Source: Bacillus sp. (in: firmicutes) | Lineage (GTDB): Bacteria > Bacillota > Bacilli > Bacillales > Bacillaceae | DNA length: 59,370 nt | Direction: 5' to 3' | NCBI GenBank assembly: GCA_031180405.1 | Contig: JAPSLU010000007.1 | Location: 1 to 59,370 of the forward strand | Shown: positions 62-47,991 of the stretch, piece after piece | Numbering within the stretch: position 1 is the first letter of the stretch | Layout of the letters: every line of letters begins with the position of its first letter | Translations under genes and position numbers: made by a program | The notes under the pieces: model-generated | Told to the model about the DNA's origin: nothing | Database searches by the model: none | The model's input: the letters and a program-made list of their open reading frames with translations, nothing else

Positions 62-1519
62 TCAATCCCTATATTTATATACCACACTACACGAAACGGG
101 ACGAGAAACCTGTCCCCTTGTCCCTAAGACGATGTCCTTTCCTTTCTCCTGGTCATAGGCTGTGAAGCTCACAACTTTTTCACCAGAGTTTATGAATAGT
201 TCCACAGAATGAAGATCAAGGAAAAACTCGAGCAGAATGTTGACTTGGCTGCTTGTTGAAAGCTCTTCTACCTTTATTAACCCTTGATTCCCGTAATCAG
301 ATGAAATTGATAGAGAGTTATTTTCCACATCTACTTGAACAGTTGTCGATTTTGTTTCATTTTTGTTAAGTATGATCTCAAATTTCCCACTTGTATTAGG
401 TACTTTCACTTTCAAATAGCCAGTAGATTTCCCTGCAATTGTTACTTCTTCCCCTTCACCAAACTGAACATTATCATAGGTAACCTCAGAGGAGAAATAG
501 CTTTCTTGATCAATAAGGGGCCGTTGTATGAGTTGACCGTCCTTAATACTGAGCTTTCTTGGTAATGACATCATTCCATTAAACCCATATTCCTTCGGTG
601 GAGTTGTTTCATGCCAACGGTGCATCCAACCGATTAATAATCGCTCCCCATCCTTTCCCTCTGTCGATTGTGGTGCATAGAAGGTTTGGCCGTAATCTAG
701 TAACCCCTTATTTTCTGAAGTAAAAGTCCCTCTTTCAAAGTCCATTTGCCCAATTACATATGCTGTCTTATTTTGAATTTCTTCTGCAAATTCAGGATCA
801 CATGGCATTTCTGAAAATAAGAGCACATCCTTCCCATCAATTCTGAACAAATCCGGGCATTCTAATAAGGTGTTTTCCTCAAATTTAGATTGATAGATTG
901 AAGAATGGAACGTCCATTCTAATAAATCCTTTGATTTAAACATAATGTTTTCTCCGCGCCTTTGAGCATTTCTTACAGATAATACACAGTAATAAACACC
1001 ATCAACCTCCATTACCTTTGGATCTCTAAAATCACAGATAAGATAATCCTCTGGTAACTGTTTTTCGCTAATAACAGGGTTTAACTTATATTTTTCAAAA
1101 TTCACCCCGTCTTCTGAGAATGCAATACATTGACGTTCAGCAATTTCCGGCTCATCTCTGTCATAGCCCATGTTTGGATCTATATGACCTGTGTACATTA
1201 AATAAAGCTTGCCATCCTTTTCAATCGCACTTCCTGAAAAGCAACCATTCGCATCATAGGCTTTGTCATTTGCCATCGCAACAGGAAGGTGCTCCCAGTT
1301 AACAAAATCCTCTGTTGTCGCATGTCCCCAGTGCATATCGCTCCAAACGATATCATACGGGTTATATTGATAGAACAGATGGTATTTTCCTTGATAATAC
1401 GTAAATCCATTCGGATCGTTCATCCACCCAATTTCAGGGGAGAAATGATAAATTGGTCTGTTTGATGCTTTATGTTTGTTTTGCTGAATATAGTCATTTG
1501 CTTTTTGTAATCGATTCAT
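62..1519 (-). CDS. Glycoside hydrolase family 32 beta-fructosidase (sucrose/fructo-oligosaccharide hydrolase)
   Basis: Cytoplasmic enzyme of 485 residues, close to the usual length of SacA/ScrB-type sucrases, with no signal peptide. The GH32 nucleophile motif WMNDPNG is at about residues 32-38 (Asp35), followed by FRDP near 165 and an ECPDLF motif (acid/base Glu) near 220; a C-terminal beta-sandwich follows. It should cleave terminal beta-fructosyl residues from sucrose or short fructans. It is the last gene of an ABC-importer operon, 12 bases after the permease, with RBS GAGGTG. Because import is by ABC rather than PTS, unphosphorylated substrate is more likely than sucrose-6-phosphate (inference). 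The last ~20 codons run through a palindromic repeat at 98-124, so the C-terminal tail after about LG-TRGQ is probably not ancestral. Confidence 0.93.
   Translation of the reverse strand: MNRLQKANDYIQQNKHKASNRPIYHFSPEIGWMNDPNGFTYYQGKYHLFYQYNPYDIVWSDMHWGHATTEDFVNWEHLPVAMANDKAYDANGCFSGSAIEKDGKLYLMYTGHIDPNMGYDRDEPEIAERQCIAFSEDGVNFEKYKLNPVISEKQLPEDYLICDFRDPKVMEVDGVYYCVLSVRNAQRRGENIMFKSKDLLEWTFHSSIYQSKFEENTLLECPDLFRIDGKDVLLFSEMPCDPEFAEEIQNKTAYVIGQMDFERGTFTSENKGLLDYGQTFYAPQSTEGKDGERLLIGWMHRWHETTPPKEYGFNGMMSLPRKLSIKDGQLIQRPLIDQESYFSSEVTYDNVQFGEGEEVTIAGKSTGYLKVKVPNTSGKFEIILNKNETKSTTVQVDVENNSLSISSDYGNQGLIKVEELSTSSQVNILLEFFLDLHSVELFINSGEKVVSFTAYDQEKGKDIVLGTRGQVSRPVSCSVVYKYRD
98..124 (+). repeat. REP-like palindromic element, copy 1 (inside the GH32 coding end)
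   Basis: Arms GGGAC and GTCCC enclose the core AACCTGTCCCC. Read in the sense of the GH32 gene the core is GGGGACAGGTT. It encodes part of the C-terminal tail of the enzyme. Confidence 0.7.
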
Positions 1520-1531
1520 TTTGCACCTCGT

Positions 1532-2365
1532 TTATTTAATTCCACTCTGCATGGAGCCTTCAACAATGTATTTTTGGAAAATGATATAGAGCACAACGAT
1601 CGGAATGGTGACAATCGTTAAGGCCGCCATAACATGACTTGTGTAAATATTATACGTATCACTGAAAATTGCATTTAATGCAACCTGAATCGGCATTAGG
1701 TCTGCATTTGAAAGCGCCATGACCGGCCATAAGAAGTCATTCCAGGATGCTAGGAAGGTTAAAATTCCCACAGTGATATACATGTTCAAGCTCGATGGAA
1801 TAACAATTCGGAAAAAGCAGCCCATTTCACTTAGTCCATCAATTTTCCCTGATTCAATTAACTCACCTGGAAATGATAGAAAGTGCTGTCTGAACAAGAA
1901 AATATTCATGACATTGATGATAAAGGGCATCAAATAACCTGGCACTGTGTTAATTAAGCCCATTTCATTCACAACTAAAAATAACGGAAGAATTGTCGCC
2001 TCAATTGGAACAATCATTAATGCGATAATAAAAATGAGTATGCCGTCTTTAAACGGAAATTGAAATCTTGCTAGGGCATATCCCGCTAACGAGTTAATTG
2101 TTAACCCAAAAACAACAGTTACTGAGGCGTAAATCAGACTATTGCCGACATTTTTGAAAATATTATAAAAGCCTAGTAACTCTGTATAGGACTTTAACGA
2201 TAAATCTGAGAATCTCGGAATGATTGCATAGATTGACCCAATATCTCTGTAAATCACTTCATCAATTTTAAAAGAAGACAGAATCATCCATAGAAGAGGA
2301 ACTAAAAACTGTAATGCAACAACAGATGCTAGTAAGTAAAACAAGATTTTCTTCACCTTCTTCAT
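1532..2365 (-). CDS. Sugar ABC transporter permease, MalG type
   Basis: Inner-membrane permease of 277 residues with six predicted hydrophobic segments. The cytoplasmic EAA-type loop (ESGKIDGLSEMG followed by FRIVIPSS, about residues 170-195) docks the ATPase. It pairs with the MalF-type permease upstream, which it overlaps by 4 bases (ATGA), the usual sign of translational coupling; RBS AGGAG lies in the upstream gene. No ATPase gene is present, so the system probably borrows a shared MsmX-type ATPase, as many Bacillus CUT1 importers do (established for the family, inferred here). The substrate is inferred from the neighbouring GH32 enzyme. Confidence 0.93.
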   Translation of the reverse strand: MKKVKKILFYLLASVVALQFLVPLLWMILSSFKIDEVIYRDIGSIYAIIPRFSDLSLKSYTELLGFYNIFKNVGNSLIYASVTVVFGLTINSLAGYALARFQFPFKDGILIFIIALMIVPIEATILPLFLVVNEMGLINTVPGYLMPFIINVMNIFLFRQHFLSFPGELIESGKIDGLSEMGCFFRIVIPSSLNMYITVGILTFLASWNDFLWPVMALSNADLMPIQVALNAIFSDTYNIYTSHVMAALTIVTIPIVVLYIIFQKYIVEGSMQSGIK

Positions 2366-3300
2366 GCCGTCCGCTCCTCTCTAAATAATTTTTTAATCAC
2401 AATTGACACAACTACTAAGAAAACAGTAAATACAAGGGTGATCGCACTCGCATATCCGATGTTTCGATGTCTAAATCCATATTCATAGATGTATTGCAAA
2501 GTCGTCATCGTGGAGTAATCCGGTCCGCCACCAGTCATAACCATTGGTTGAACAATTAACTTAAATGCCTGAATCGTAGTGGTGATGACTAAAAACATCA
2601 GGATTGGTTTTAATGAAGGAATCGTAATAAATAAGAACTTTTGAAACCCATTCGCTCCATCAATATCTGCTGCTTCATATAAACTGTTATCAATATTTTT
2701 TAATCCCGCTAAGAAAATCATCATTTGATAACCACACCCTGACCATGCGGAAATCGCCACAATTGTGTACATCGCTTGATCAGCACTAGATAGGAATGGT
2801 TGTTTCGCAATTCCTATACTCGCTAATATTTCATTGATCAGTCCAGATGTCGGGTTTAACATAACAGTCCAAAGAATAGATATGACAACGAGTGACAACA
2901 CCGCTGGTGAAAAGTATGCTGTCCGGAAAAAGCCAACTCCCTTGATTTTTTTATTCACAATCAACGCTAGCCCAAGTGCCATCGCGAGTTGAAGTGGTAC
3001 AACAAACACCACAAACTTAATGGTGTTCAAAAAGCTTTGAATGAGCACCTCATCTGTCAGCATTCGTTTGAAATTTTCTATACCGATAAATTGCTTATCA
3101 TTCGGTTTTAATAAATAGTAATCTGTAAATCCGTACGTAAATGCTAGAACAATAGGTAAAACGATAAATAGAATGGAAAGCACCATTGCTGGTGTTAAAA
3201 ATCCATAGGCAGAAACAACTTCACCTTTTTTATAATGCTCACTGTTTCGGTAATGTTCTGTTGTATTTCTCACTTTCACATAGTTTTTTACCGTTTTCAT
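2362..3300 (-). CDS. Sugar ABC transporter permease, MalF type
   Basis: Permease of 312 residues with an N-terminal cytoplasmic stretch of about 35 residues, six hydrophobic segments and an EAA loop EAADIDGANGFQKF near residue 215. An ATG at 3300 follows an in-frame GTG at 3303; both are served by AAGGGTG, and the ATG is preferred. It lies between the binding-protein gene and the MalG-type gene. The 93-base gap to the binding-protein gene holds a hairpin at 3340-3362, which would let the solute-binding protein be made in excess over the permeases. Confidence 0.93.
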   Translation of the reverse strand: MKTVKNYVKVRNTTEHYRNSEHYKKGEVVSAYGFLTPAMVLSILFIVLPIVLAFTYGFTDYYLLKPNDKQFIGIENFKRMLTDEVLIQSFLNTIKFVVFVVPLQLAMALGLALIVNKKIKGVGFFRTAYFSPAVLSLVVISILWTVMLNPTSGLINEILASIGIAKQPFLSSADQAMYTIVAISAWSGCGYQMMIFLAGLKNIDNSLYEAADIDGANGFQKFLFITIPSLKPILMFLVITTTIQAFKLIVQPMVMTGGGPDYSTMTTLQYIYEYGFRHRNIGYASAITLVFTVFLVVVSIVIKKLFREERTA

Positions 3301-3339
3301 CACTTCACACCCTTTACACTTGGCTTTTAAATTGCAAAA

Positions 3340-3362
3340 GCCTCTCTTATAAGGGAAGAGGC
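3340..3362 (-). terminator. Intercistronic hairpin between binding-protein and permease genes
   Basis: GCCTCT pairs with AGAGGC around an inner TTATAAG palindrome. On the minus strand only a short TTTT follows, so it is more likely a partial terminator or mRNA-stabilising hairpin than a full stop. Confidence 0.55.
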
Positions 3363-3393
3363 GAGGTCAATACCCCACCCCCTCCTAACAAAA

Positions 3394-4776: not shown

Positions 4777-4808
4777 ACTTTCATAGACCCCCTAGTCTGA
4801 ATAATTGG

Positions 4809-5029: not shown

Positions 5030-6010
5030 ATGAGTAAACTCACTATGAAAGAAATCGCCAAACTTGCAAACGTTTCCCAATCAACTGTTTCACGAGTAAT
5101 TAACGGAAATAAAGGAGTCAATGAAGATGCCATGAAACGTGTTCTTCAAGTCATTGAAGAAAGTGGTTATGTACCTAACAAAGCAGCTCAAACCTTAAAA
5201 AAGAGCCAATCAAAAATTATCGGGGTTTGCTTAACAGAGACGTACAATCCCTATTTCGTAGAATTGATTGATGCACTAGAATCAGAAGCCCGCAAAAACG
5301 GCTATAGCATTCTACTGCACAATTCAAAACACAATCCAATTATCGAATGGGAAAGCATCCAAAACTTTATTGCCCGCCAGGTAGACGGTATGATTCTCGT
5401 CCCTACAGGTGAATACAATATTCAAAGAATAAGTAAGCTTGCGATCCCTTCTGTTGTCATGACACAAAACCGAAAGCCCCTTGACAGTGTAGGCCTTGAC
5501 CATATGAAAGCAGGAAAAATGGTTGGAGAAAAATTTATCCATGCAGGTCATCGAAAATTTGGATTTGTCGGAACAATACCCGATGATAAATTTCTAGGTT
5601 ACAAAAGCGCCTTGTACGAAAACGGTTTCGAATTTGACGAGAAACATTATATCCAGCTTGAAGAAACCTCAACGAATAACTTTTTAATGCGAAGAGATAT
5701 TGAGAACTATTTAAACTCTGTCAAATCACTTGATTTCACCTGTTTGTTTACAGCTAATGATATTATGGCGCTAGAATTTATGAAGGCAGCAAAAGAAAGG
5801 AATATCAGAATTCCTGAAGATATAAGCGTGATCGGATTCGATGATACGTACCTTGCAAAAATCATGGGCATTTCCAGTATTCATCAGCCAATCGAAGAAA
5901 TGGTGAATACAACAATTGAAATACTATTAAACAGAATGGAAAATGAGGTTTCAACGGAGGCTATACAAATTAAGTTGGATCCTACTTTGATTGAGCGGAC
6001 TAGTTCTTAG
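5030..6010 (+). CDS. LacI-family transcriptional regulator of the fructoside locus
   Basis: Regulator of 326 residues. The N-terminal helix-turn-helix and hinge (MKEIAKLANVSQSTVSRVING, then GYVPNKAAQTLKKSQS) occupy residues 1-60, and a periplasmic-binding-protein-like sensor domain occupies about 62-326. RBS GGAGGAG fixes the ATG. It is divergent from the transport operon, and paired palindromes in the shared 250-base region fit repression of both sides with relief by the transported sugar (inference). The stop codon is followed within 7 bases by an 8-bp hairpin of the REP-like family. Confidence 0.92.
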   Translation: MSKLTMKEIAKLANVSQSTVSRVINGNKGVNEDAMKRVLQVIEESGYVPNKAAQTLKKSQSKIIGVCLTETYNPYFVELIDALESEARKNGYSILLHNSKHNPIIEWESIQNFIARQVDGMILVPTGEYNIQRISKLAIPSVVMTQNRKPLDSVGLDHMKAGKMVGEKFIHAGHRKFGFVGTIPDDKFLGYKSALYENGFEFDEKHYIQLEETSTNNFLMRRDIENYLNSVKSLDFTCLFTANDIMALEFMKAAKERNIRIPEDISVIGFDDTYLAKIMGISSIHQPIEEMVNTTIEILLNRMENEVSTEAIQIKLDPTLIERTSS

Positions 6011-6110
6011 AGGGTCGGAGGGACAGGTTCATCGTCCCTCCCTTCCAATCTAGAGTTAAATTAAAATAAGTATGTTCAAACTTGGGACAACTCACCTGTC
6101 CCCTTGTCCC
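6011..6110. repeat. Composite REP-like unit: two hairpins facing each other
   Basis: The first hairpin, 6017-6041, has an 8-bp perfect stem GGAGGGAC/GTCCCTCC and a core reading GGACAGGTT on the plus strand. The second, 6084-6110, has a 7-bp perfect stem GGGACAA/TTGTCCC and a core reading GGGGACAGGT on the minus strand. The ~42-base spacer contains AGTTAAAT. The same arrangement recurs at 9569-9687. The first hairpin follows the lacI-type stop and the second overlaps the end of the SGNH gene, so the unit fills a convergent gap. Confidence 0.7.
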
Positions 6111-6946
6111 TGCTTCCCTGTAAAGTAATTACCCAAGTATTCAGCCCATACTTTATGTCCAGATTTATTTGGTTGATTTGATGCTGTTACATACTCTTTT
6201 AGTTTTTTATTGTCTAGAGCAGGCCAGTTTTCCCAGTGGTCTATGTATGTGATGCTATTTTCTTTTGCGAAATTTTTAATTTCATCTACTTGCTTTGGGT
6301 AATATATGGCATTGTGGATTGGGTTTGAAGGCTGTAGGAGAACAGTAATTCCTTCATTTTCTGCTTCCCATGAATTTATGATCTTTTGAATATAACCTGT
6401 ACGATTTTGCATGGAGACTTTTTCATTATTATCACGAATCATGAACGGCTCAAATAGGGCAATGTCTGGATTTAGCTCATTTACCTTTTTATATGATTTT
6501 GTTCTAATCACATCTACAGTTGTTTTGTTCACTTCTGATAAGATTTCCACATTAAAGAGGTCTTTTCCGTAGGTTTCTGTTAAATGCTGCTTTAATAGAT
6601 CTGGCCATGCCTCTTTTTCACTTGAAGAGCTCTCAGATCCGTATATCACCATATTTAATGTTTGTCCATTTTGGGATGCGTCTATGATTTTCTTTTGAAG
6701 TTCCTGTGGTAGATTACGAGTGTATGTAGAAAGATCCTGTTTATTTTCCTCTTTTTTAACCTGTTGTGTTGTTTTTTCCTCTATGGGTTCTGTATTTTTC
6801 TCCACTACTTGGTTTACGACTATGGAATCATCTTTTTTTACGATTTGTTGGGCTTGAGCCGAGAGTTTTTGATTCCAATGAATGTTTCCAGCAATGATCG
6901 CTCCAGCACTTATGGTGACGATAACGCCACATATCAGATTCTTCAT
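6092..6946 (-). CDS. Exported SGNH/GDSL-type hydrolase
   Basis: Protein of 284 residues with an N-terminal membrane anchor or uncleaved signal (about residues 3-22), a charged linker to about residue 75 and an SGNH hydrolase fold. The nucleophile block is VIYGSESSSSE, an atypical GxS block, and the C-terminal block SGHKVWAEYL supplies the probable catalytic His. Such proteins often de-esterify surface polysaccharides; the substrate here is unknown. RBS GGGGGA supports the start. The last codons (GQGDR and TGA) lie inside a REP-like element, so the natural C-terminus was probably a few residues different. Confidence 0.75.
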   Translation of the reverse strand: MKNLICGVIVTISAGAIIAGNIHWNQKLSAQAQQIVKKDDSIVVNQVVEKNTEPIEEKTTQQVKKEENKQDLSTYTRNLPQELQKKIIDASQNGQTLNMVIYGSESSSSEKEAWPDLLKQHLTETYGKDLFNVEILSEVNKTTVDVIRTKSYKKVNELNPDIALFEPFMIRDNNEKVSMQNRTGYIQKIINSWEAENEGITVLLQPSNPIHNAIYYPKQVDEIKNFAKENSITYIDHWENWPALDNKKLKEYVTASNQPNKSGHKVWAEYLGNYFTGKQGQGDR

Positions 6947-7320: not shown

Positions 7321-7352
7321 AAGAGCCGAAGTATCAGTACTCCGGCTCTTTA
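7321..7352 (-). terminator. Terminator after the TTE-repeat protein gene
   Basis: AAGAGCCG and CGGCTCTT pair with an inner AGTA/TACT. On the minus strand the hairpin is followed by TTTTATTG, 9 bases past the stop codon. Confidence 0.75.
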
Positions 7353-7360
7353 TCAAAAAC

Positions 7361-8344
7361 TTATTCTTTTACAGCTTCTACTTCTGTTTCTACTTCTACT
7401 TCTGTTTCTACTTCTACTTCTGTAGTAGCTTCTGCATCAGCTTCTTCTGTTGGTTCTTCAGTTGTTGCTTCTTCCTCAACAGCTACTGCATGAACAGCAG
7501 CGTTCATATGTGCGTGAGATTTTGCTGTTTCACTTGCGTGTGCACTTGCTTGTGCTTCAGCTTTGTTTACAATAGATGGATTTACTTCTTCTGTTGTTTC
7601 TGTTGTTTCTTCTGCTACTGTTTCAGCTACTTCTGTTGTTTCCTCTACTTCTGTTTCAGCTGCTTCTGTTGTTTCTTCTACTTCTGTTTCAACTGCTTCT
7701 GTCGTTTCTTCTACTTCTGTTTCAGTTGCTTCTGTCGTTTCCTCTACTTCTGTTTCAATTGCTTCTGTTGTTTCTTCTACTTCTGTTTCAATTGCTTCTG
7801 TTGTTTCTTCTACTTCTGTTTCAATTGCTTCTGTTGTTTCTTCTGTTACTGTTGCCTCTGCTTCTGTTGTTGCCTCTGCTTCTGTTGTTGCCTCTGCTTC
7901 TGTTGTTTCTTCAGCAACTGCATGAACAGCCGAGTTTTCATTTGCATGTAGCTTAGCATTTTCACTCGCATGTTCATTTGCTTGTGATTTTACTTTATTG
8001 ACTGCAGATTTATTTACTTTAACTTCTTCAATAACAGCTTCAGTTTGCTCTTCTTCTGTTACCTCAGGTTTTACATTAACTGTAGTAACAACTTTTGTTT
8101 TACCATGTACTGCAGCATTTGGTGCCGCGTTTTCTTTTGCTGTTGCACTAGCGTTCACACTTGCCTGAGCTTTCTTCTCTTTCAATTCTTTGTTTGAGTC
8201 TGAAGTTTTTTCAACTTTTACCGTTTTAACTGCTTTTGCATCTACTGGAGCAGCTGCTTCACTAATTTGTCCACCTACAAAAACACCTACTGATACGACT
8301 CCGGCTAACACCAATGATTTTACTACATTATTTTTAAATTTCAT
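7361..8344 (-). CDS. Secreted protein with an 11-residue EETTEAIETEV tandem repeat
   Basis: Exported protein of 327 residues with no recognised enzyme domain. The signal peptide covers about residues 1-31 (hydrophobic LVLAGVVSVGVFVGG, cleavage near SEAAA). The mature part has three copies of a ~27-residue Ala/His/Asn-rich motif of the form QAxxHASENAKxHAxxNxAVHA. Between copies two and three lies an acidic low-complexity region: EATTEA units, then about seven EETTEAxETEV units (33-bp period). A TEVEVETEV tail ends the protein. It has no LPxTG-type signal, so it is probably released or held by charge. RBS AAGGAGAG decides the start. It lies 46 bases after the gene for another Ala/Lys-rich exported protein and probably shares its transcript. 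Function unknown. Confidence 0.8.
   Translation of the reverse strand: MKFKNNVVKSLVLAGVVSVGVFVGGQISEAAAPVDAKAVKTVKVEKTSDSNKELKEKKAQASVNASATAKENAAPNAAVHGKTKVVTTVNVKPEVTEEEQTEAVIEEVKVNKSAVNKVKSQANEHASENAKLHANENSAVHAVAEETTEAEATTEAEATTEAEATVTEETTEAIETEVEETTEAIETEVEETTEAIETEVEETTEATETEVEETTEAVETEVEETTEAAETEVEETTEVAETVAEETTETTEEVNPSIVNKAEAQASAHASETAKSHAHMNAAVHAVAVEEEATTEEPTEEADAEATTEVEVETEVEVETEVEAVKE
7590..7920 (-). repeat. 33-bp tandem repeat array in the secreted protein gene
   Basis: About seven near-identical 33-bp units encode EETTEAxETEV, preceded by shorter EATTEA units. Unit length is a multiple of three, so copy-number change would alter protein length without a frameshift. Confidence 0.8.
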
Positions 8345-9299: not shown

Positions 9300-9789
9300 T
9301 TCACCACCTTTCTTTGAAAAAATGATTACAGATATAGTATTTCAACAAAATTCAGCATTTTTTGTCCGTTGTAATTTTTTTATTTAAAGGCTCTTTTCTG
9401 AAAGCTTGTTGCTAATTGTTCTAATTAAATGGAAGAAAACGTTATTTATAGCATATAAGGTACTATTTTAATAAAAAAAGAGGCTACTAGACTTGATACA
9501 TACAGAGCGGTCTCTTCAAGTTACCTAATTGCAACAAAGTGTACGAAAAAAGTCTTATTAAAAAAAGAGGGCCGGAGGGACATGTTCATCGTCTCTCTGA
9601 CCTTAAACTAGGGTTAAATGTTTATGTATGTATGTCCAATTTTTTACTTTATCATAATTGGGTCAACTCACCTGTCCCCTTGTCCCATGTCCAATAATTG
9701 AAATGACAGGCTACTAATAATCTTTAAAGTTTAGTGTTACAGTTTTCAATTCAAGCATTTATGTATCCTCATAATCTTATTTTCATCCT
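9300..9789. other. Intergenic stretch holding the second composite REP-like unit
   Basis: Apart from the composite repeat at 9569-9687 no gene or strong promoter is visible. Confidence 0.5.
9569..9687. repeat. Composite REP-like unit, second copy
   Basis: A first hairpin at 9574-9598 (GGAGGGAC then GTCTCTCT, partly decayed) and a second at 9659-9687 (TGGGTCAA/TTGTCCCA with one T-T mismatch around a CCTGTCCCC core). Order, orientation and spacer words (CTAGGGTTAAAT, TATGT) match the unit at 6011-6110, so the ~110-base assembly itself was copied. Confidence 0.7.
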
Positions 9790-11940: not shown

Positions 11941-12094
11941 TATTTATCCCTCAACCTTTTCATGCATATACATTGACTTGTCTTCTATATACTCACAATA
12001 GTAAGTTGCACCCTATCAACCTCTTCATATCTAACTATCTATCCACCCTTCGTCAAATTTTAGGTGGCGACTCTGGTTGACCCGGAATAAATAA

Positions 12095-12125
12095 GCGGGT
12101 CAGGGGACCTGTCCCCTTGTCCCGC
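12095..12125 (+). repeat. REP-like element after the fructokinase gene
   Basis: GCGGGtCA and TTGtCCCGC pair except for one T-T mismatch, with an inner GGGGAC/GTCCCC. It lies directly beyond the stop codon of the fructokinase gene; in the gene's sense direction the core reads GGGGACAGGT. Confidence 0.7.
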
Positions 12126-17886: not shown

Positions 17887-17983
17887 AATCTCAGTAAAGG
17901 CAAACCTATTGAAATAAGGAACGCAAAGTCAAGGTCCTAAAACACTGTTATGGAAACCGAGTACACAATTGGATGTAGAGATT
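17887..17983 (+). ncRNA. c-di-GMP-I (GEMM-I) riboswitch
   Basis: P1 AATCTC (17887-17892) pairs with GAGATT (17978-17983). Inside are the class I hallmarks: AAAGGCAAACC, a GAAA loop, GGAACGCAAAGTC and GGTCCTAA. It lies 55 bases before the start of a PAS-GGDEF-EAL gene, so c-di-GMP probably controls expression of its own metabolic enzyme. Confidence 0.88.
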
Positions 17984-23042: not shown

Positions 23043-23184
23043 GTTAACTCTCACCCTATCACTATGTATTCGGAAATATATCTTCCACCGTTTATATAGC
23101 AATTTTTAGGAATGGAGTAGCGTGTAAAATAAAATTTTTTTCAATTACGTAATACTCGACAAATATCCTAAAAAATATTCTTTC

Positions 23185-23394
23185 ATGTACGAGGTTGCGA
23201 GTTTTGAGAAGCTATTTTAGCAATTTAAAGCATTGATTTATCATGCGATGTATAGATTAGCTATTTTTTAAAAACAAGAGTTTTACCCGGATTGGATGTA
23301 TTGCATGATGGGATGCTTCGCTGCGGTTTAATGTGGAAAACGGAGAATTTACGTCATATTATTCCTTTATCATAGATCGAATGAAAAGAAAAAA
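23185..23394 (+). pseudogene. Broken copy of the sigma-like factor gene at 36189
   Basis: Nucleotide similarity to the start of the gene at 36189 is obvious: ATG-TACGAGGTTGCGAGTTTT against ATG-CACGAGGATGCGAGTTTT, then TTTATCATGCGAT and GATGCTTC. An in-frame TAG follows at codon 12, and there are further deletions. The similarity stops near ATGAAAAGAA, and region 4 is missing. Confidence 0.8.
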
Positions 23395-35699: not shown

Positions 35700-35826
35700 C
35701 GGGCCTTTTGGATAGGTACTTTGTCCAAAGTCTTTACTATTGATAGTAGCTCTTGGGTCTAGGGGAGGGTCTAGGGGACAGGTACTTTGTCCCAAAGTCT
35801 TTACTTTTAATAGTAGCCCTCAAGTG
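35700..35826. repeat. Tandem duplication carrying a short REP-like hairpin
   Basis: Two ~65-base units (35710-35765 and 35775-35826) share GGTACTTTGTCC, AAGTCTTTACT and ATAGTAGC. The second has a perfect hairpin GGGACA/TGTCCC (35775-35793); the first has lost one pair. Confidence 0.65.
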
Positions 35827-36000
35827 TAGATAGTAACATACTGCTCCACAGGTGGAATTTTTCAGCTGAAAAGGGATAAAAATTCAAAGGTTTTTCAGTT
35901 GAGTTAAATGTGAAATCCTATGTATTTCCTTAAAGAGAATTTCCCTTACACCTCTCCCTGCAACTTCTTAAAGGACCACCCTAAAAATTATTTAAAAATT

Positions 36001-36027
36001 GGTACAGTGAACCTGTCCCCATGTACC
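36001..36027 (+). repeat. REP-like element with GGTACA/TGTACC arms
   Basis: Perfect 6-bp arms GGTACA (36001-36006) and TGTACC (36022-36027) around AACCTGTCCCC. The arm bases differ from those of the other copies but are still complementary. Confidence 0.75.
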
Positions 36028-36034
36028 TTCCCCA

Positions 36035-36075: not shown

Positions 36076-36188
36076 CCTAACAAACCCTTCAATTTGCTTC
36101 ATATCGTAAGTTTTCTCTATCTTCAGAGCTTGCTATTCTCAAATTACCGCGGAATACATAAGAATGCATTCTTAAAAAGGATTTTTCC

Positions 36189-36677
36189 ATGCACGAGGAT
36201 GCGAGTTTTGAGAAGCTGCTTCAGCATTTTGAACCAATGATTTATCATGCGATTCATAGATTAGCTATTTATAAAAATGAACAAGAGTTTTACCAGATTG
36301 GTTGTATTGCACTATGGGATGCTTCTCTGCGATTTAATAATAAAAAAGGAAACTTTAAGTCTTATGCCTATTCCTATATCATTGGTCGAATGAAAAGAGC
36401 ACTTACAGAAGAAAGAAAGAGGCTTAAAAAGGAAAGTCTGATAGAAGAGGCTTTGGTCACAGAAGAAAAGAGTAATGATGATTTTGCAGCTATCCTAACG
36501 GAAAGTTTGATTGAAAAAGTCTCCCCCCTCTTGACTGAAAATCAAAACAAGTGGGTAAAAGCTTATTATTTCTACGGTAAAACACCTACAGAAATTGCCG
36601 AAGATGAGGGTGTTTCAGCTGCTGCTGTAAAAGCTTGGCGTAGGGATGCAATTGCTAATTTGAGGAAGTATTTTTAA
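36189..36677 (+). CDS. Sigma-70-like transcription factor
   Basis: Protein of 162 residues. A region 2-like domain spans about 5-80 (FYQIGCIALWDASLRFN, then FKSYAYSYIIGRMKRAL) and a region 4 HTH spans about 108-160 (GKTPTEIAEDEGVSAAAVKAW). No region 1 or 3, as in small alternative or phage-type sigma factors. AAGGA precedes the ATG. A truncated duplicate lies at 23185-23394. No anti-sigma gene is recognisable beside it. Confidence 0.82.
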   Translation: MHEDASFEKLLQHFEPMIYHAIHRLAIYKNEQEFYQIGCIALWDASLRFNNKKGNFKSYAYSYIIGRMKRALTEERKRLKKESLIEEALVTEEKSNDDFAAILTESLIEKVSPLLTENQNKWVKAYYFYGKTPTEIAEDEGVSAAAVKAWRRDAIANLRKYF

Positions 36678-37566: not shown

Positions 37567-37761
37567 ATTACATCCCCTCCTACTATATTATGAGGACTCG
37601 GATTCGATAACTGGCTAACATATTGGCAATTAAAACCAACTTAGTCCCTATAGCTTTGCGTCATCATTTTTCAATGATTTTGCCATTTTCGTACATCGTG
37701 CAATCTGGAATGATCTATTTGTGATAGGAAGAAAGTGTTACCTTTAATTTAACTCAATAGA

Positions 37762-40581: not shown

Positions 40582-40603
40582 GTATGAATAGGTCTTTTAA
40601 CCT

Positions 40604-40684
40604 ACGAAAAAGGCAAAACTGTTGAAAGACAGTGACGCAAAGCCACAGGTCTAAGGTGAAACGCTATGATAGCTGGATTATCGA
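40604..40684 (+). ncRNA. c-di-GMP-I (GEMM-I) riboswitch
   Basis: AAGGCAAAACTG, GAAA loop, CAGTGACGCAAAGCC and GGTCTAAGG match the class I consensus closely. It ends about 12 bases before the ATG of a GGDEF gene with no terminator between, so control is probably at translation initiation. Confidence 0.9.
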
Positions 40685-40696
40685 AAAGGGGTTTGT

Positions 40697-42290: not shown

Positions 42291-42545
42291 TCATTTAAAA
42301 TAGCCAGGGAAACGCAAGAACCGTCCCCATGTTTCATAGATTTCTACAAGCTCAAATAAATCATTAGATCCTGCTCCTTCGATATGACTATTTGGTTTGT
42401 CATCAGGATATACTTCAGTAAAAATGACAGGCATTTGTTCTTCTGTGTTATCTTGTTGAGTAGAACCAATAATGGCATGTGCAGCGTTTACAAATGGATT
42501 TAAAACGACTAGTAAACAAAGAATAGTAGCAACTATCCTCTTCAT
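42291..42545 (-). pseudogene. Truncated exported lamin-tail-domain protein
   Basis: Signal peptide (about 1-26, LCLLVVLNPFVNAAHA) followed by PVIFTEVYPDDKPN and GSNDLFELVEIYE. This is the first strand region of a lamin tail domain, as found at the N-terminus of large Bacillus surface nucleases and phosphoesterases (usual pattern EVxPD...GSDAFEFVEIYN). The frame then runs straight into a REP-like element (42309-42335) and stops, so the rest of the domain and any enzyme part are gone. Confidence 0.6.
42309..42335 (+). repeat. REP-like element with GAAACG/TGTTTC arms
   Basis: Arms GAAACG and TGTTTC pair with one G-T wobble around AACCGTCCCC. It forms the last codons of the truncated lamin-tail gene. 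Confidence 0.7.
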
Positions 42546-42966: not shown

Positions 42967-43024
42967 GATCTTTTATTATATCTATACAAAAGTTTGATAG
43001 GTTCTTTTATTCCAAGAGATTTTT

Positions 43025-43051
43025 GGAACACCAGAACCGTCCCGATGTTCC
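43025..43051 (+). repeat. REP-like element with GGAACA/TGTTCC arms
   Basis: Perfect 6-bp arms (43025-43030, 43046-43051) around AACCGTCCC. Confidence 0.75.
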
Positions 43052-43071
43052 TTGCTAGCAACCAATTATGT

Positions 43072-43099
43072 GGGTCAATGAACCTGTCCCCCTTGTCCC
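43072..43099 (+). repeat. REP-like element with GGGTCAA/TTGTCCC arms
   Basis: Arms pair except for a central T-T mismatch, the same mismatch as in the copies at 9659 and 12095. Core AACCTGTCCCC. Confidence 0.65.
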
Positions 43100-43188
43100 T
43101 CATTCATATTTTACTCTATTATCACTTTAATTAATTAAAACACTAAATTATAATAGACATATACTATATGATTTTGGGGGTAACAATT

Positions 43189-44778
43189 ATGAAAAAGAAA
43201 GTGGCTATCCTTGGTAGCAGTGGAGGGAATCTTTATTCTCTTGGCGGGAAAGAACCAGAGAAACTTCTTGGGGAACTTCTCTTGCAGCTAGAATCAGCAG
43301 GGATGGAGTGCAACGCTCTCCAGTTTATCGCAGCTAAAGGGTCAATGGACTCAGTGAAAGAGTCAACGGAAGCCGTCCTATATGTGTGGGATGAACAAGC
43401 GAGTAAGCCATATATTAAACTAGAAGGAACATTAAAAGAGGTTAATAAGGAAGCGGTAAAAACAGATCTAGAAATTTCAGAAAAGATAAACAATGGGGAG
43501 ATTGATGGACTAATCTTCATGAGTGCTGATCCAAATGGCACTAACAAGAATGCAGTCGAAGCTGCAGCAAAAGCGAATCTGCCGGCAACAGGGACTGGCG
43601 GTACCTCTATGGCAGCGATTAGTTCAAAAGGAGTCAATGTCATTTCCACATCGGGAACGACTGGAACGACCAATCGTACTCGCGCGGTAACCTTTGTTAC
43701 ATCATTAAGCAAGCATTGGGGGATTTCTTATCGTCCGATTATCGGAAAAGCAACGGCTTCCGATCAGACGCAAGAAACGTCTCCTTGGAAAAGAATCAAT
43801 ATTCGTGGGATGATGCTTGCTTCTCTACCTGGTTTTATTGCGATGGCATTAGTTCTCGCATTAAGTAAGATCCCTGCTTTATCGATGCTCGGGGATGTTT
43901 TTGATCTAATGATCAATGCCCTGCCAATTATTCTTGCTGTTATTGCCGCAAAACAAGTGGCTGATCTTGATGATGTTTCCATCGTTGCTGGCATTGTGGC
44001 AGGCGTATTGTCCACAGGCGGTGGAATTATCGGTGGAATTATTGGTGGGATTGGTGCAGGACTTTTAGTTCAATATATTTTCAGAAAATGTGTAGAATGG
44101 AAATTTCCAGCTACGACTGTCAATATTGCTGCTGGTGGGATTGCAGGATTAATCTCAGGATTAATCGTCTATTTTCTTTTCGCTCCAATCGCTCTTCAGC
44201 TTGGTGAAGGAATTCGAACATTAATTGATACACTTGTCGCAATGAATCCAATTCTTGCAGGATTAATTGCAGGTTTACTTATCTGGCCAGCAATTATCGG
44301 AGGAATCTATCACGCTGCTATTCTTCCAATCGTCTTATTGGAAATGGAACGTACAGGGAACAGTTTTCTAGGTGCCGTAGATATGGTCGGCTTAGTCATG
44401 GTATCCGCCGGCATCACGTTAGCCAATATTGTTGCACCTCGAGATAAAGGAGAAGCCGCAGTAGCAACACCAGGCTTTTTAATTAACATAGGATTTGGTA
44501 CTTTTGTAGAAGCTGCTTATCCCTTCATGTTCTCAAACAAACTTATCTTTGCTGGAGCGATTGTATCATCCGGTTTAGGCGGTCTGCTTGTTGGTCTCTT
44601 TGATGTACGCGGAACAGCTTATGTACCATCCATTATGGCTCCTTTCCTTTCAGATAATATGAGTGGCTTTATCATTGCAATGGTAGGAAGTATGGTATGT
44701 GCGTTTGTAATTACACTATTTGTTAATTTGATTGCTAAGAAAAAGGCTAGGAATAAGGACGAATTATTATCGGCATGA
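43189..44778 (+). CDS. PTS EIIC-like membrane protein with a soluble N-terminal domain
   Basis: Protein of 529 residues from the ATG at 43189, preceded by GGGGGT; an upstream ATG lacks an RBS. Residues 1-190 form a soluble Gly/Ser-rich domain (KVAILGSSGGNLYSLGGKEP; NLPATGTGGTSMAAISS; STSGTTGTTNRTRA). Residues 205-520 hold about ten hydrophobic segments resembling the fructose-type EIIC permease (ATPGFLINIGFGTFVEAAYPF). No EIIA or EIIB phosphorylation motif is visible and no PTS gene is nearby. The N-terminal domain family is not recognised; it may bind a ligand or nucleotide. The gene ends at a REP-like hairpin. Confidence 0.75.
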   Translation: MKKKVAILGSSGGNLYSLGGKEPEKLLGELLLQLESAGMECNALQFIAAKGSMDSVKESTEAVLYVWDEQASKPYIKLEGTLKEVNKEAVKTDLEISEKINNGEIDGLIFMSADPNGTNKNAVEAAAKANLPATGTGGTSMAAISSKGVNVISTSGTTGTTNRTRAVTFVTSLSKHWGISYRPIIGKATASDQTQETSPWKRINIRGMMLASLPGFIAMALVLALSKIPALSMLGDVFDLMINALPIILAVIAAKQVADLDDVSIVAGIVAGVLSTGGGIIGGIIGGIGAGLLVQYIFRKCVEWKFPATTVNIAAGGIAGLISGLIVYFLFAPIALQLGEGIRTLIDTLVAMNPILAGLIAGLLIWPAIIGGIYHAAILPIVLLEMERTGNSFLGAVDMVGLVMVSAGITLANIVAPRDKGEAAVATPGFLINIGFGTFVEAAYPFMFSNKLIFAGAIVSSGLGGLLVGLFDVRGTAYVPSIMAPFLSDNMSGFIIAMVGSMVCAFVITLFVNLIAKKKARNKDELLSA

Positions 44779-44787
44779 TGTTTTTGA

Positions 44788-44821
44788 GTGGGAAACAGGG
44801 GGACGGTTCCTTTGTTCCCAC
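44788..44821 (-). repeat. REP-like element with extended GTGGGAAACA/TGTTCCCAC arms
   Basis: A 9-bp stem with one bulged A around GGGGGACGGTT. It lies 9 bases after the stop codon of the EIIC-like gene with the core in the sense direction of that gene. Confidence 0.75.
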
Positions 44822-44878
44822 GAAGCACTTAATTTCTTTTACATGTACGATTTCATTGTAGAAATTTTTCAAACGAAT

Positions 44879-44918
44879 AAAAAAGAGAGTCATTATATAC
44901 ATAATGACTCTCTTTTTT
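44879..44918. terminator. Bidirectional intrinsic terminator
   Basis: AAAAAAGAGAGTCATTAT and ATAATGACTCTCTTTTTT pair perfectly around a short loop. It separates the convergent EIIC-like and sortase genes. Confidence 0.9.
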
Positions 44919-44933
44919 CACTTTTTTGGAAAC

Positions 44934-45575
44934 TCACAAAGGACTACTCTTTAACTTTGTATAAACGATGTAACGATCTGGTGCATTACCGATAAAATCA
45001 AAGGGATAGCAGGTGGTTAACGTAAGTGTCTCATAGTCTTTCGCTACAGCAATTGTTTCATCTTCTGCATCAACGATTTTAAAATCAGTTGCCTCATAAA
45101 TGAAATCACCGTATGGAGTAGTAAAAGTAATTTCATCGCCAACTTTTAAATGCTCTAGCTTTCTAAACACTGTATCACGATGTCCACTTAAGATAACATG
45201 TCCACCTTGACCAGGGAGAGCACTTCCTGCCATATGGCCAATTCCCTTTTTTAGTTCCTCATCATGTGTGCCTTGTACGACAGGATATTGCAATTCAAGG
45301 GAGGATATCGCTAATTTCCCGATTTGTGAACCTGGATCAGGCAATGTTGACCATGCCTCTGTTTTAAAAGTTCGTTCCTTAATCTCAGGTTCGTATGGGG
45401 TCACAACAGTCTTTGCTAATAGAGTCGTTTCCTTTGTCATTTCCCACCCGAAAACAGCAATGATGACAACACCTGTAAGAATAAAAGAAAAAGGAATACC
45501 GAGCAAGAACCATTTTAAAACTCGCTTACTTTTCTTCTTTTTTCTTTTACGTTTTCGTTTTCGCTGTTCTTCCAT
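44934..45575 (-). CDS. Class D sortase
   Basis: Membrane transpeptidase of 213 residues from the ATG at 45575, four bases after the upstream stop codon; translation is probably coupled. A very basic N-terminus (RKRKRKRKKKKSKR) is followed by one TM segment (about 25-47) and the sortase barrel. The catalytic triad is His in LSGHRDTVF (near 132), Cys in TLTTCYPF (near 188) and Arg in APDRYIVY (near 200). The TLTTC context is that of class D enzymes, which attach LPDTx/LPNTA-type proteins to the peptidoglycan. The preceding gene encodes an LPDTA protein, an obvious substrate; the lipase at 48011 has IPNTA. Confidence 0.9.
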   Translation of the reverse strand: MEEQRKRKRKRKKKKSKRVLKWFLLGIPFSFILTGVVIIAVFGWEMTKETTLLAKTVVTPYEPEIKERTFKTEAWSTLPDPGSQIGKLAISSLELQYPVVQGTHDEELKKGIGHMAGSALPGQGGHVILSGHRDTVFRKLEHLKVGDEITFTTPYGDFIYEATDFKIVDAEDETIAVAKDYETLTLTTCYPFDFIGNAPDRYIVYTKLKSSPL

Positions 45576-45579
45576 TGGA

Positions 45580-46278
45580 TTATGCTTGGCTATCCATTCT
45601 ACGAGCAGCACGGATAGATGGTACTAGCGCTAATCCACCTAGAATAACAAGTAAACCACCAAGTGCAATTCCTTTAGGAAGCTCTGATGCAGTGTCTGGT
45701 AATTTAGAAGCAGGCATTGGAACAAACGCTTCCGCTTCATCAAGCTCAACCTTTGCTTCTACTGCTGTTTTTAATGCTGCTAATTTACTGTTTAAAGCCG
45801 CAGGTTTTAGATCGTCAAGTTTTGGATCAATTGACGCTAAAACATTACCTTTGGTGTCTTTAATTTGAATCATCAATTGCTTTGCATTTTCTAAGTTTAT
45901 ATCTTTTAAATCAATAGCATTTCCATTTTTATCAACAAATGCTACTTGCAAGTGCGCCTTTTGTGCACTATCTAGAAATAAACGACCGATTTTTGCTCTG
46001 TTAGCATCTGAAAGCTCTTCTGGAGATGAGACAGTTTGTAATATTTTAGAAGCCTCTTCAGCATTTTTGATAATGCTCTTATACTCTTTGTCTGTAATTT
46101 CAACAGATTGTAGGTAAGTGTATAAGTAGTCAACATTATCTAATCCCAAGCCCTTTAAAGCATCGACTAACTTTTGTGCTGATTCATTCGTTGCAGCTTC
46201 TGCTTCATTGCTCGCAAAAGGATTTAGTGCTGTTAACCCTAAACTTAATACAGCGACAACTATTGCCTTCTTAAACAT
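45580..46278 (-). CDS. LPDTA cell-wall-anchored surface protein, sortase substrate
   Basis: Protein of 232 residues from the ATG at 46278 (AAAGGA nine bases ahead). Signal peptide about 1-30, then a helical domain of about 165 residues of unknown fold. The sorting signal is LPDTA near 196, followed by a hydrophobic segment (GIALGGLLVILGGLAL) and a basic tail (RAARR). It forms an operon with the class D sortase and is presumably its dedicated substrate. Confidence 0.85.
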   Translation of the reverse strand: MFKKAIVVAVLSLGLTALNPFASNEAEAATNESAQKLVDALKGLGLDNVDYLYTYLQSVEITDKEYKSIIKNAEEASKILQTVSSPEELSDANRAKIGRLFLDSAQKAHLQVAFVDKNGNAIDLKDINLENAKQLMIQIKDTKGNVLASIDPKLDDLKPAALNSKLAALKTAVEAKVELDEAEAFVPMPASKLPDTASELPKGIALGGLLVILGGLALVPSIRAARRMDSQA

Positions 46279-46439
46279 GCATATCATTCCTTTTCTTTTA
46301 ATTTTTTACACTTCTCTATATTTTAGCATAATTCGACTTTCCATTCTATTAAATCTATGTAAATATTCATAGATTCCAAAACTTGTTATATAACTCTCCT
46401 AAATAGTTGGTTCTTTATCCTACTTCAATAGTACTATAT

Positions 46440-46470
46440 TGAGAACATGGGGACGGTTCTTTTGTTCTCA
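46440..46470 (-). repeat. REP-like element abutting the RAYT gene
   Basis: Perfect 8-bp arms TGAGAACA and TGTTCTCA around GGGGACGGTT. It ends at the base next to the stop codon of the transposase gene. Relative to that gene the core is in the opposite orientation to the other gene-end copies. Confidence 0.75.
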
Positions 46471-47247
46471 TTATGATTTAAAAACTAGATTCAACGATAC
46501 TCCAAAAATTCTAGCGATTTGACGCAGTGATAGCCCCTCAATTCCTTTAACCTTTAGTAAAATTTCATTTCTTTGTACCTTCGGAAGACTTTTTACTTGT
46601 GCAATTTCAATCATACCAAGTAGTTTCTTGATTTCTATCCTCGCTTCCTCATCTGATATTTTCCTTTTATTCACTTGATCACCTAGACATGTATCACTAT
46701 TTTTTCTTTCATTAAATTCTTTAAATCGTTCTACAGCAGTTACACTATCAGTAGAAAACATTTTTAATATATTTTCACAGTCCAACATATCCTTAAGATA
46801 GGGTGTTTTACCATAATATCCAGAACAGCTGCTCCACCTCCATTCTTCACTTTGTAAAACGATGCCGGCCTTAACAGGATTTTGATGGATATACCTCACA
46901 ACTGTCAGTAAATATTTATTATTTTCTACATTTTCACTTTTGAATCGATCCTGAAATAAATGTCCAGTTGTACTGTATTTCAAGTTATAGTATCTGACAA
47001 AGCTAACCCCAACCCGTTTCATAGTAATCGAGATATCTTCACATCCCTCTTTTATTAATAGATGGATATGATTGCTCATCAAGCACCAAGCATATATGGA
47101 CAATTCACATTTCAACTTATATTTATGGAGTATATCTAGAAATTTCTCATTGTCCTCATCATCATGAAATATTTCCTGCCGATTAGCTCCTCTCCATATG
47201 ATATGGTAGATTCCAGTTTCACTTTTAACCCTAGCTTTACGAGGCAC
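46471..47247 (-). CDS. REP-associated tyrosine transposase (RAYT, Y1/HUH family)
   Basis: Protein of 258 residues. The GTG at 47247 is chosen because the family begins PRKARVKSETGIYHI and GGTGA lies ahead; the upstream extension has no RBS. The HUH motif is SNHIHLL (near 61), the likely catalytic Tyr is in FVRYYNLKY, and RYIHQNPVKAGIV is a hallmark of the TnpA_REP family. A C-terminal HTH follows (LSLRQIARIFGVSLN). RAYTs are single-copy domesticated relatives of IS200/IS605 transposases linked to dispersal of REP palindromes in Gram-negative bacteria. No terminal repeats of an IS are visible, but a REP-like hairpin of the local family touches its stop codon. Confidence 0.88.
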   Translation of the reverse strand: MPRKARVKSETGIYHIIWRGANRQEIFHDDEDNEKFLDILHKYKLKCELSIYAWCLMSNHIHLLIKEGCEDISITMKRVGVSFVRYYNLKYSTTGHLFQDRFKSENVENNKYLLTVVRYIHQNPVKAGIVLQSEEWRWSSCSGYYGKTPYLKDMLDCENILKMFSTDSVTAVERFKEFNERKNSDTCLGDQVNKRKISDEEARIEIKKLLGMIEIAQVKSLPKVQRNEILLKVKGIEGLSLRQIARIFGVSLNLVFKS

Positions 47248-47768
47248 ATCTATCACCACTTTCCACCAAAATTTATGAATTCTCATGATGTGATGCTAGC
47301 CTTTCAAATGGTGCTCATCTTTGATTCTTGACTACTTTCTAAATGCGAGACTAGTACATGCATAGAAACGACTATTATTTGATCGTATTTACTCCATTGT
47401 TGCTAAGATGAAACTTATAATTCGAAGCAGAAAATTTATTGTTATAGGATTGATTGGATTTGTTTGAGTCTCGATGTTCAGTAAGATATGGGATCAATTG
47501 AGGAAATGAGAATAAAAGAAGATAGAAACGTAATCGTAGATTTGACCCTTCCCTAATTAACAAGTAATAAGGGCTCAAGCCCTTTATAAACCAATGTGAC
47601 TGAATTTTTTAATGTTTGAAGAAAATAAGAAGGAGTAAGGTTAACTAGATTGGAGGAAATTTTTCAATTCATGTTCTTTATTCTGCAGTTAATTCTATAT
47701 TCCTTTATTTATTGCAGGAAAATTATTATGTACAAAAGAACATCGTAGTTTTCTAAATACTGTTAAAC
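47248..47768. other. Intergenic stretch upstream of the RAYT gene
   Basis: No convincing gene. A small GGGCT/AGCCC hairpin lies near 47571. No second REP-like hairpin is found on this side of the transposase gene until the cluster at 47880. Confidence 0.4.
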
Positions 47769-47774
47769 AAAAGA

Positions 47775-47822
47775 GAGAATCAATCACTTACCCTTAATGA
47801 TTGATTCTCCCTTTCTATTTTT
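47775..47822. terminator. Terminator-like hairpin
   Basis: GAGAATCAATCA/TGATTGATTCTC followed by CCTTTCTATTTTTTG on the plus strand. No plus-strand gene is intact before it. Confidence 0.65.
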
Positions 47823-47879
47823 TGTTAGGCACTGTGAAAAAGATATAACTCTCTATTATTCTAGGAGATTTTCAGACCA

Positions 47880-47991
47880 CCAGGACTGTCCTCCCCGCTG
47901 TTTATCCAGGAGATATTAGAACACCAGAACCGTCCCCACCGTTTCACCGTTTTACTGTTACAGCAAACGCAAGAACCGTCCCCCTTGTTCC
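47880..47991 (+). repeat. Cluster of three REP-like elements after the giant lipase gene
   Basis: A degraded copy at about 47880-47910 (CCAGGACTGTCC), a copy at 47919-47945 (GAACA, AACCGTCCCC, CGTTTC) and one at 47963-47991 (GCAAACG, AACCGTCCCCC, TTGTTCC). All share orientation; the arms are imperfect. They lie 20-130 bases past the stop of the gene at 48011. Confidence 0.65.

Follow-up and report, generated by a model that had tools for sequence, protein, structure and literature searches.

Palindromic repeats of a Bacillus genome fall into two families, each tied to its own RAYT transposase, and repeat stems are associated with the transposase helix-turn-helix

Tyrosine transposases accompanied by palindromic or inverted repeats have been described in several forms. 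Passages of Di Nocera 2013 (PMC3733652) present TIRYTs as tyrosine transposases flanked by inverted repeats (terminal inverted repeats, TIRs), some of which share the motif GGGGWSAS; the TIR repeat families are reported there to be moderately abundant, and some TIRs to be self-complementary. According to the sections of Quentin 2018 (PMC6006769) on TnpAY1 subclass 2.1, this group comprises Class 2 Y1 proteins, some of the longest (median 238 aa), with a C-terminal HTH_23/HTH_28-like domain, which were suggested to be TIRYTs; automatic and manual searches gave no REP-like (repetitive extragenic palindrome) sequences for them, and target recognition by the C-terminal domain was left open. Passages of Corneloup 2021 (PMC8266576) deal with GTAG REPs of TnpAREP groups 2 and 3, in which enzyme and repeat co-evolve. 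Here we describe the palindromic elements of a 59,370-nucleotide (nt) stretch of Bacillus sp. DNA (contig JAPSLU010000007.1, referred to below as the window). The elements form two families, A and B, each of which is tied to its own Y1/HUH transposase, A to RAYT-A and B to RAYT-B. The question addressed is how a domesticated transposase still recognises its own repeats while both diversify, and new relative to the systems above is an association in RAYTs between the stem of the element and the C-terminal helix-turn-helix (HTH) of the enzyme.

Like TIRYTs, the enzymes considered here are Y1 transposases with an HuH motif and a catalytic tyrosine (H73, H75 and Y132 are invariant in 31 aligned RAYT sequences, and Pfam Y1_Tnp was found in all 31 proteins), and terminal inverted repeats flank the gene as in TIRtrons. 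The family A core GGGGACAG fits GGGGWSAS, whereas the family B core GGGGACGG has G for A at position 7. Judged by sequence, the elements and RAYTs would work like REPtrons, with family A a putative TIRtron by layout and motif and family B one base off the motif. The TIRtrons in the passages of PMC3733652 appear without a constant loop joined to a changing paired stem and without a stem-HTH link, and Bacillus is mentioned there only in other contexts. The initial annotation of the window had stated that no defined class of this form was known in Bacillaceae; TIRs with GGGGWSAS have in fact been known since 2013, although, as far as those passages go, neither for Bacillaceae nor with this stem and loop logic.

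The likeness to subclass 2.1 lies in the C-terminal domain, since HTH_23 was detected in 23 and HTH_28 in 14 of the 31 proteins at E<=0.1 (RAYT-B itself matched weakly, HTH_23 E 0.036). All 31 carry YIHQNP rather than the YIELNP or Y[IV]HLNP given for the subclass in the sections cited, and they are therefore called 2.1-like, not members; unlike in the searches reported there, a REP-like element was present at 87 of 143 such genes. With GTAG REPs, as treated in the passages of PMC8266576, the elements share a Y1 transposase and a palindromic cognate repeat in intergenic DNA. Those REPs have an unpaired conserved GTAG foot outside the stem and an enzyme for which no HTH is described there, whereas here the loop is conserved and an HTH is present; GT[AG]G within 15 nt at the 5' foot was not enriched (6 of 152 paired elements, against 12 of 152 for the reversed motif). 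The HUH fold and hairpin-bearing ends recall IS200/IS605 transposases (IS608, ISDra2), from which the RAYTs differ by an invariant Y132-N136-P137 in the 31 sequences (Y---NP instead of the IS200 Y---Q) and by the added C-terminal HTH. An HTH-stem link was not found in titles and abstract openings of open-licence papers, and among the papers listed for a full-text search of that literature with the exact core strings, the titles were unrelated.

On the G-rich strand, each element consists of an arm, one base and a segment beginning GGGGAC (14 nt), followed by the second arm, so that the loop N-GGGGAC... measures 15 nt. The two families have an identical register, both with 15 nt between the arms, and different cores (GGGGACAGG in A, GGGGACGGTTC in B). 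Exact GGGGACRG occurs 13 times in the window against 0.9 times per dinucleotide shuffle (30 shuffles), and nine occurrences, against 0.1 in shuffles, have flanking arms with a net score of at least 5, which bears out the earlier expectation of an excess of core plus complementary arms over shuffled sequence. A covariance model (R1), built on 61 elements that adjoin RAYT genes in other genomes, with none from the host genome, found nine window sites at E<0.001. Of about 18 palindromes listed in the initial annotation, it recovered 14 at E<=0.22 and missed those at 9574, 23463, 35710 and 47880; every other window site scored worse, the best of them on the reverse strand of 12095 (E 0.48). Eight of these 14 sites have the family A core GGGGACAGG and six the family B core GGGGACGGTT, so that the single, nearly constant core proposed earlier is replaced by two. 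Perfectly matched arm pairs had also been emphasised; they exist and are the best cases, as all eight arm positions pair at 46440 alone among the listed sites, and at most three in five of them (23463, 35710, 43072, 47880 and 47919), with one of eight at 47880. The site at 9574 is apparently a weakened copy, with two core mismatches and six of eight pairs. In the host assembly (5.16 Mb in 438 contigs, 89% complete, 6.5% contamination), R1 was used to score 150 of 829 candidates and gave 23 matches at E<0.01, eight of them inside the window, which is contig C296 and makes up 1.15% of the assembly; the match at C59:14, counted among the 23, repeats the window element at 94 through contig overlap. 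The pattern ACANGGGGACRG had 20 matches and its reversed form 2. Tens of copies per genome, as had been predicted, are therefore found, and the hundreds that were also envisaged are not.

RAYT-B is encoded in the window and all six window family B elements lie within about 5 kb of it. A family B copy on the opposite strand stands 25 nt behind its stop, and two copies on the same strand stand about 640-690 nt before its start. An AF2 model of the protein (pLDDT 88.1, pTM 0.69) places the HTH in helices 254-261 and 265-270, and its best PDB match was 4er8_A, the E. coli TnpAREP-REP complex (E 4.5e-7), with the ISDra2 and IS608 transposases next. Relatives of RAYT-B that are 55-75% identical are in many cases flanked by the same kind of element. 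The second host transposase, RAYT-A, is split by a contig end: its N-terminal piece ends contig C59 and its C-terminal piece begins contig C366, with 127 identical bases common to both contigs. Since C59:14-139 exactly matches the first 126 bases of the window (13 further C59 bases are not shared in order), RAYT-A probably lies about 3.5 kb beyond the left end of the window, if these contig overlaps reflect true neighbours, and family A copies are densest on the side of the window that faces this presumed position. In related genomes, RAYT-A proteins share 39-48% identity with RAYT-B, and most adjoin family A elements. The helix in the C-terminal piece (C366) reads GISKSVIQR, which elsewhere goes with GGGACA stems, and GGGACA is the arm of family A. 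In two further genomes (L061 in G013, L063 in G008) a third RAYT type (36% identical) was observed alongside self-complementary GGGGACAGTCCCC repeats, which contain the GGGGAC motif in another form.

The same arrangement was found across Bacillota, where 143 RAYT loci chosen from the searches that follow were examined. Named relatives of RAYT-B were found at 14 loci in Bacillus, Neobacillus, Mesobacillus, Paenisporosarcina and others. In two draws of genomes, the host included, a match was present at E<=1e-3 in 47 of 149 and at E<=1e-40 in 83 of 398. GGGGAC occurs within 600 nt of the RAYT in 120 of the 143 loci, and in 87 the element has a stem paired at five or more of seven positions. Among 152 paired elements, the gene strand carries 64 upstream and four downstream, and the opposite strand 77 downstream and seven upstream; as 141 of the 152 are thus upstream/same or downstream/opposite, the flanks are inverted ends, as in TIRtrons. 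Both flanks are paired in 33 loci, with a stem identity of 0.90. Of 51 cases with a unique placement, 45 have their arms 15 nt apart, and when arms were dealt among RAYTs, 4.4 per round were still at this distance because some stems are shared. RAYTs within one genome are mostly diverged (e.g., in G000 and G003), while G114 and G233 hold pairs of equal score.

The arms covary strongly between lineages. When the nearest element of each RAYT was taken irrespective of pairing (n=105), Watson-Crick matches made up 69.4% of the first seven pairs, against 39.4% when right arms were dealt among RAYTs (maximum of 2000 deals, 45.3%). In a set of 86 elements, which had been selected for paired stems, both-sided changes numbered 226 against 69.1 (sd 9.1) in shuffles, stem pairs 3 to 6 showed 162 both-sided and three one-sided changes, and the covariation score reached 0.771, compared with 0.199 in shuffles and no more than 0.219 when slid; the 61-element set gave 0.753 against 0.210 shuffled. 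The fixed loop with complementary, changing arms described in the initial annotation is confirmed at this level, while the claim that arms covary copy by copy is not borne out. For family B (115 copies, 22 genomes), complementarity was 0.682, against 0.464 when arms were dealt between genomes and 0.680 when dealt within them (p 0.46). For family A (147 core hits, 20 groups), it was 0.707, against 0.625 between genomes and 0.680 within (p 0.002), the within-genome set including chance core hits that fit neither arm; the host genome alone gave 0.58 against 0.50 dealt (p 0.025). Compared with the consensus of their own genome (after removal of eight B and 21 A copies judged not to be elements, and in genomes with at least five copies), family B copies showed 79 one-sided and four compensated changes (both-sided 10, expected 6.0) and family A copies 122 one-sided and seven compensated (both-sided 9, expected 7.6); in the host genome, two compensated changes stood against eight one-sided in family B and one against 12 in family A. 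Between orthologous copies of three species of about 94% identity (G005, G006 and G020, the trio below), 36 changes were one-sided and one was compensated, both directions counted. A single family with compensating copies was accordingly rejected, as the listed sites mix two families and family B shows no within-genome gain. In the trio, with the core ascertained and pairs counted both ways, the right stem diverges less than the right flank (0.044 against 0.085), the left stem no less than the left flank (0.056 against 0.052), and some single arm positions hardly vary in place. The arms thus change together mainly per lineage, in step with the master copies at the flanks, and decay of the resident copies would follow. 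Per-hairpin selection or templated copying, the earlier interpretation, is in the main not what the data convey; the observation behind it is partly confirmed and the interpretation itself partly supported.

The protein region most associated with stem sequence is the HTH, with the signal at the recognition helix (helix 265-270 of the AF2 model). It was located with 12-residue alignment windows, by partial correlation between window identity and stem similarity after removal of catalytic-core identity. In a first scan of 58 RAYTs, the top four windows lay at 250-270, and this location was stated before new RAYTs were fetched, one automatic procedure being applied to both sets. The discovery set (47 RAYTs) had its top windows at 253-264 and 259-270, with r up to 0.30 and the top four within 250-270. 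In the new set (35 RAYTs, <90% identical to the discovery set), the top two of 84 windows were 259-270 (r 0.307) and 256-267 (0.232), and the best of six pre-stated windows had p 0.0025; windows starting at 244 to 253 gave no signal in this set. Among 80 non-redundant RAYTs, residue 265 had the highest rank among 244 columns at stem pairs 3, 4 and 5 (z 14.3, 13.1 and 9.2), and the windows starting at 256 and 259 gave p 0/1000 when stems were permuted only inside core-identity clusters. With upstream elements only (n 52), which lie at the opposite gene end to the HTH codons, the HTH window was again at the top (r 0.29), followed by windows 73-87 and 130-141 (0.21-0.22), and N-terminal windows were near zero; the association is therefore not simply linkage at the 3' end. 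For pairs of RAYTs whose cores share 65% identity or more, stem similarity was 0.33 where the helices are unlike (0.3-0.5; 13 pairs) and 0.84 where they are alike (>=0.7; 48 pairs).

Copies are concentrated around their own RAYT, which suggests action near the gene. In six genomes, 35 of 94 family A copies lie within 100 kb of RAYT-A (3.6 expected), and in two genomes 11 of 18 family B copies lie within 100 kb of RAYT-B (0.7 expected). Contig C2 of G003 carries both RAYT genes, 61 kb apart, and its seven B matches surround RAYT-B at 80-108 kb, while seven of its 11 A matches surround RAYT-A at 117-165 kb. RAYTs of different types about 40-170 kb apart on the chromosome were also observed in G002, G003, G009, G063, G086, G089 and G095. 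The copies are old: behind the same gene (81-82% identical), G003, G005 and G006 have an element where the window has its copy at 6010, and nearly all loci tested in a search for empty sites, made in the fetched stretches of the trio, are common to the three genomes. Where the exact core was lacking, three loci proved to have a changed core at the same place, and two comparisons had no clear outcome (G006 83377 against G020, and G005 145320, which lies in a repeated stretch). Two calls of absence at locus L180 were an alignment artefact, as the element is present in both other genomes. Among indels of at least 8 nt in 69 trio pairs, 17 fell at -30 to -1, i.e., 5' of the stem, four at -120 to -31 and 28 at +30 to +139. 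Those at the 5' foot could mark cleavage, but also slippage within the G-rich arms or genes lying close by on the left, and they are not used as evidence.

We consider it likely that the repeats are bipartite recognition elements of RAYTs, with a constant loop for the HUH domain and a lineage-specific stem read by the HTH. They would be the REP or TIR elements of IS200-like Y1/HUH enzymes with an added C-terminal HTH, whose gene usually lies between its elements as inverted ends, while solitary copies cluster nearby (more than a third within about 100 kb) and are also scattered. The near-constant 15-base loop, common to the enzyme group, would probably be read as a single strand by the HUH domain, and the complementary arms would form a short lineage-specific duplex read by the HTH, mainly by recognition-helix residues around 265. 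If the HTH changes, the flanking master elements would change along with it and later copies would inherit the new stem, which would explain why arms covary between lineages and hardly between copies. Directly testable pairs are available, as a cognate stem is assigned for 87 RAYTs, the loop is nearly constant and a short protein segment tracks the stem.

A narrower proposal, that a single-strand transposase has an evolvable address of two parts in which recognition-helix residues set individual base pairs of a free stem read by a changeable HTH while a fixed HUH domain reads the fixed loop, is put forward tentatively, with belief and disbelief almost in balance. With SR at residues 264-265, pair 3 is C in 7/7, and with NR it is T in eight of 10 defined cases; P goes with G in 11/13 and with A at pair 4 in all 12 defined cases, K with A in 15/19 and with G at pair 4 in 15/17, F with C at pair 4 in 5/5 and Y with T in 4/6. 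A first rule held on later RAYTs for P and partly for K. Several stems of the third set are apparently shifted by one or two pairs, and motif counts free of register were 35/45, 33/37 and, in the third set, 7/12 (3.2 expected). The code that would follow reads SR-CCA, NR-GTCA, K-GAC, P-A[AG]CA, F-CACA and Y-TCA. We treat it as a hypothesis and limit our claim to the HTH-stem association; if it were true, new RAYT-REP families could arise through few HTH residue changes, and stems would be predictable from protein sequence.

Several results weigh against these readings. The first rule was contradicted by L223, L227 and L230 ("R gives C") and by L235 ("K gives A"). The refined fixed-register rule, written down before the third fetch of RAYTs, was right in 5/16 cells (chance 0.34; 12 scorable of 20 divergent unseen RAYTs), and the register-free count was post hoc for the third set, while some classes of the second set were named after inspection. 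The scan-wide maximum of the new set (0.307) lies within the permuted range (mean 0.178, highest of 200 permutations 0.358, with a third of the windows permuted), and replication therefore rests on the prior statement of place. Columns outside the recognition region (67, 93, 106 and 254) also rank high, and GGGGAC has no occurrence within 600 nt in 23 of the 143 RAYTs. No clean new insertion or empty site was seen in the fetched stretches of G005, G006 and G020, so that present mobility is at most putative. G.T mismatches were no commoner than A.C (22:21, 32:44 and 25:20); nothing here favours a folded strand, and resident copies thus bear no trace of an RNA hairpin or of a wobble-tolerant DNA hairpin.

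The same lack of a G.T excess agrees with an alternative that we regard as quite possible, in which the arms are two inverted half-sites for a dimeric HTH on double-stranded DNA, the 15-bp spacer corresponds to about two helical turns and a hairpin is unneeded. The HTH-stem association would be expected here too, and so would the uncompensated, one-sided changes of resident copies and the single arm positions that are nearly fixed in place. Against half-sites, related solved complexes (4er8, IS608 and ISDra2) hold, by their titles, REP hairpin or stem-loop end DNA, and pairing extends to the seventh or eighth pair in many elements, while a single HTH usually reads a shorter stretch than seven to eight pairs. 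It is rather unlikely, in our judgement, that the association merely reflects co-inheritance of a RAYT gene and its flanking elements without any reading of the stem. Element and gene are neighbours, the high rank of columns 67, 106 and 254 points this way, and permutation within clusters leaves some tree structure; however, catalytic-core identity had already been removed, the HTH, and not the N-terminus beside the upstream element, carries the signal when upstream stems alone are used, and the stems of RAYTs with similar cores differ according to their helices.

The earlier reading, in which selection or templated (quasi-palindrome) correction maintains the hairpin of every copy, has become very improbable. 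Individual compensated copies do exist, e.g., GGTACA/TGTACC at 35997, family A has its small within-genome excess and the both-sided cells are slightly above expectation, but family B shows no such excess and one-sided changes far outnumber compensated ones in both families and between orthologous copies. We give almost no credence to the view that the copies are RNA elements, such as terminators or mRNA-end hairpins, unrelated to a transposase: although 13 of the 14 window sites lie wholly or partly outside the open reading frames taken as genes, no Rfam family reached its gathering score at these sites, wobble pairs are not in excess, and the link to RAYTs and the inverted flanking layout speak against it.

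The RAYT-B gene and the 14 elements recovered by R1 are given in Table 1.

Table 1. RAYT-B and palindromic elements of the window, with R1 scores
Feature	Positions	Strand	Details
RAYT-B, Y1/HUH transposase gene	46471..47286	-	271 aa, C-terminal helix-turn-helix; Pfam Y1_Tnp E 8.6e-17
Family B element, downstream inverted flank of RAYT-B	46440..46472	+	Stem TGAGAACA/TGTTCTCA, 8/8 paired; 41.2 bits, E 2.2e-10
Family B element, upstream flank of RAYT-B, gene strand	47914..47947	-	Arms degraded; 14.8 bits, E 0.073
Family B element, upstream flank of RAYT-B	47965..47992	-	Arms degraded; 13.9 bits, E 0.14
Family B element	44790..44822	+	One extra A in left arm; 30.9 bits
Family B element	43021..43053	-	GGAACA/TGTTCC; 25.8 bits
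Family B element	42305..42337	-	GAAACA/CGTTTC; 31.7 bits
Family A element	94..126	-	Within bases 1-126 identical to C59:14-139; 31.4 bits
Family A element	6010..6042	+	Behind gene 5030-6010; 13.3 bits, E 0.22
Family A element	6080..6112	-	GGGACA/TGTCCC; 25.8 bits
Family A element	9656..9688	-	One arm mismatch (GGGACA/TGACCC); 22.1 bits, E 0.00033
Family A element	12093..12125	-	One arm mismatch; 30.9 bits
Family A element	35765..35797	+	Left arm partly lost; 16.0 bits, E 0.03
Family A element	35997..36029	-	GGTACA/TGTACC, compensated variant; 25.5 bits
Family A element	43069..43100	-	One extra base in left half; 17.1 bits, E 0.013

Two family A copies of another genome (L107 and L117 in G016) have lost the left arm; their remaining right arm, TGTCCC, could instead pair with GGGACA of the core. 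Just before the weak copy at 9574 ends a separate repeat of about 190 nt (window 9377-9567), many copies of which, 72-80% identical, were seen in the host genome and in G001, G004 and G012.

Finally, the window contains other features of note. Three c-di-GMP-I riboswitches (Rfam RF01051) are located at 17889-17968 (+), 37603-37694 (-) and 40602-40685 (+), all within 59 kb. The open reading frame at 7361-8344 (-), encoding 327 aa, has long internal arrays of 15/18-nt repeats (about 7346-7951). The stretches 23166-23359 and 36170-36365 are 78-83% alike; the latter overlaps the start of a sigma-70-type gene (36189-36677), and the former may be the remnant of a second copy.

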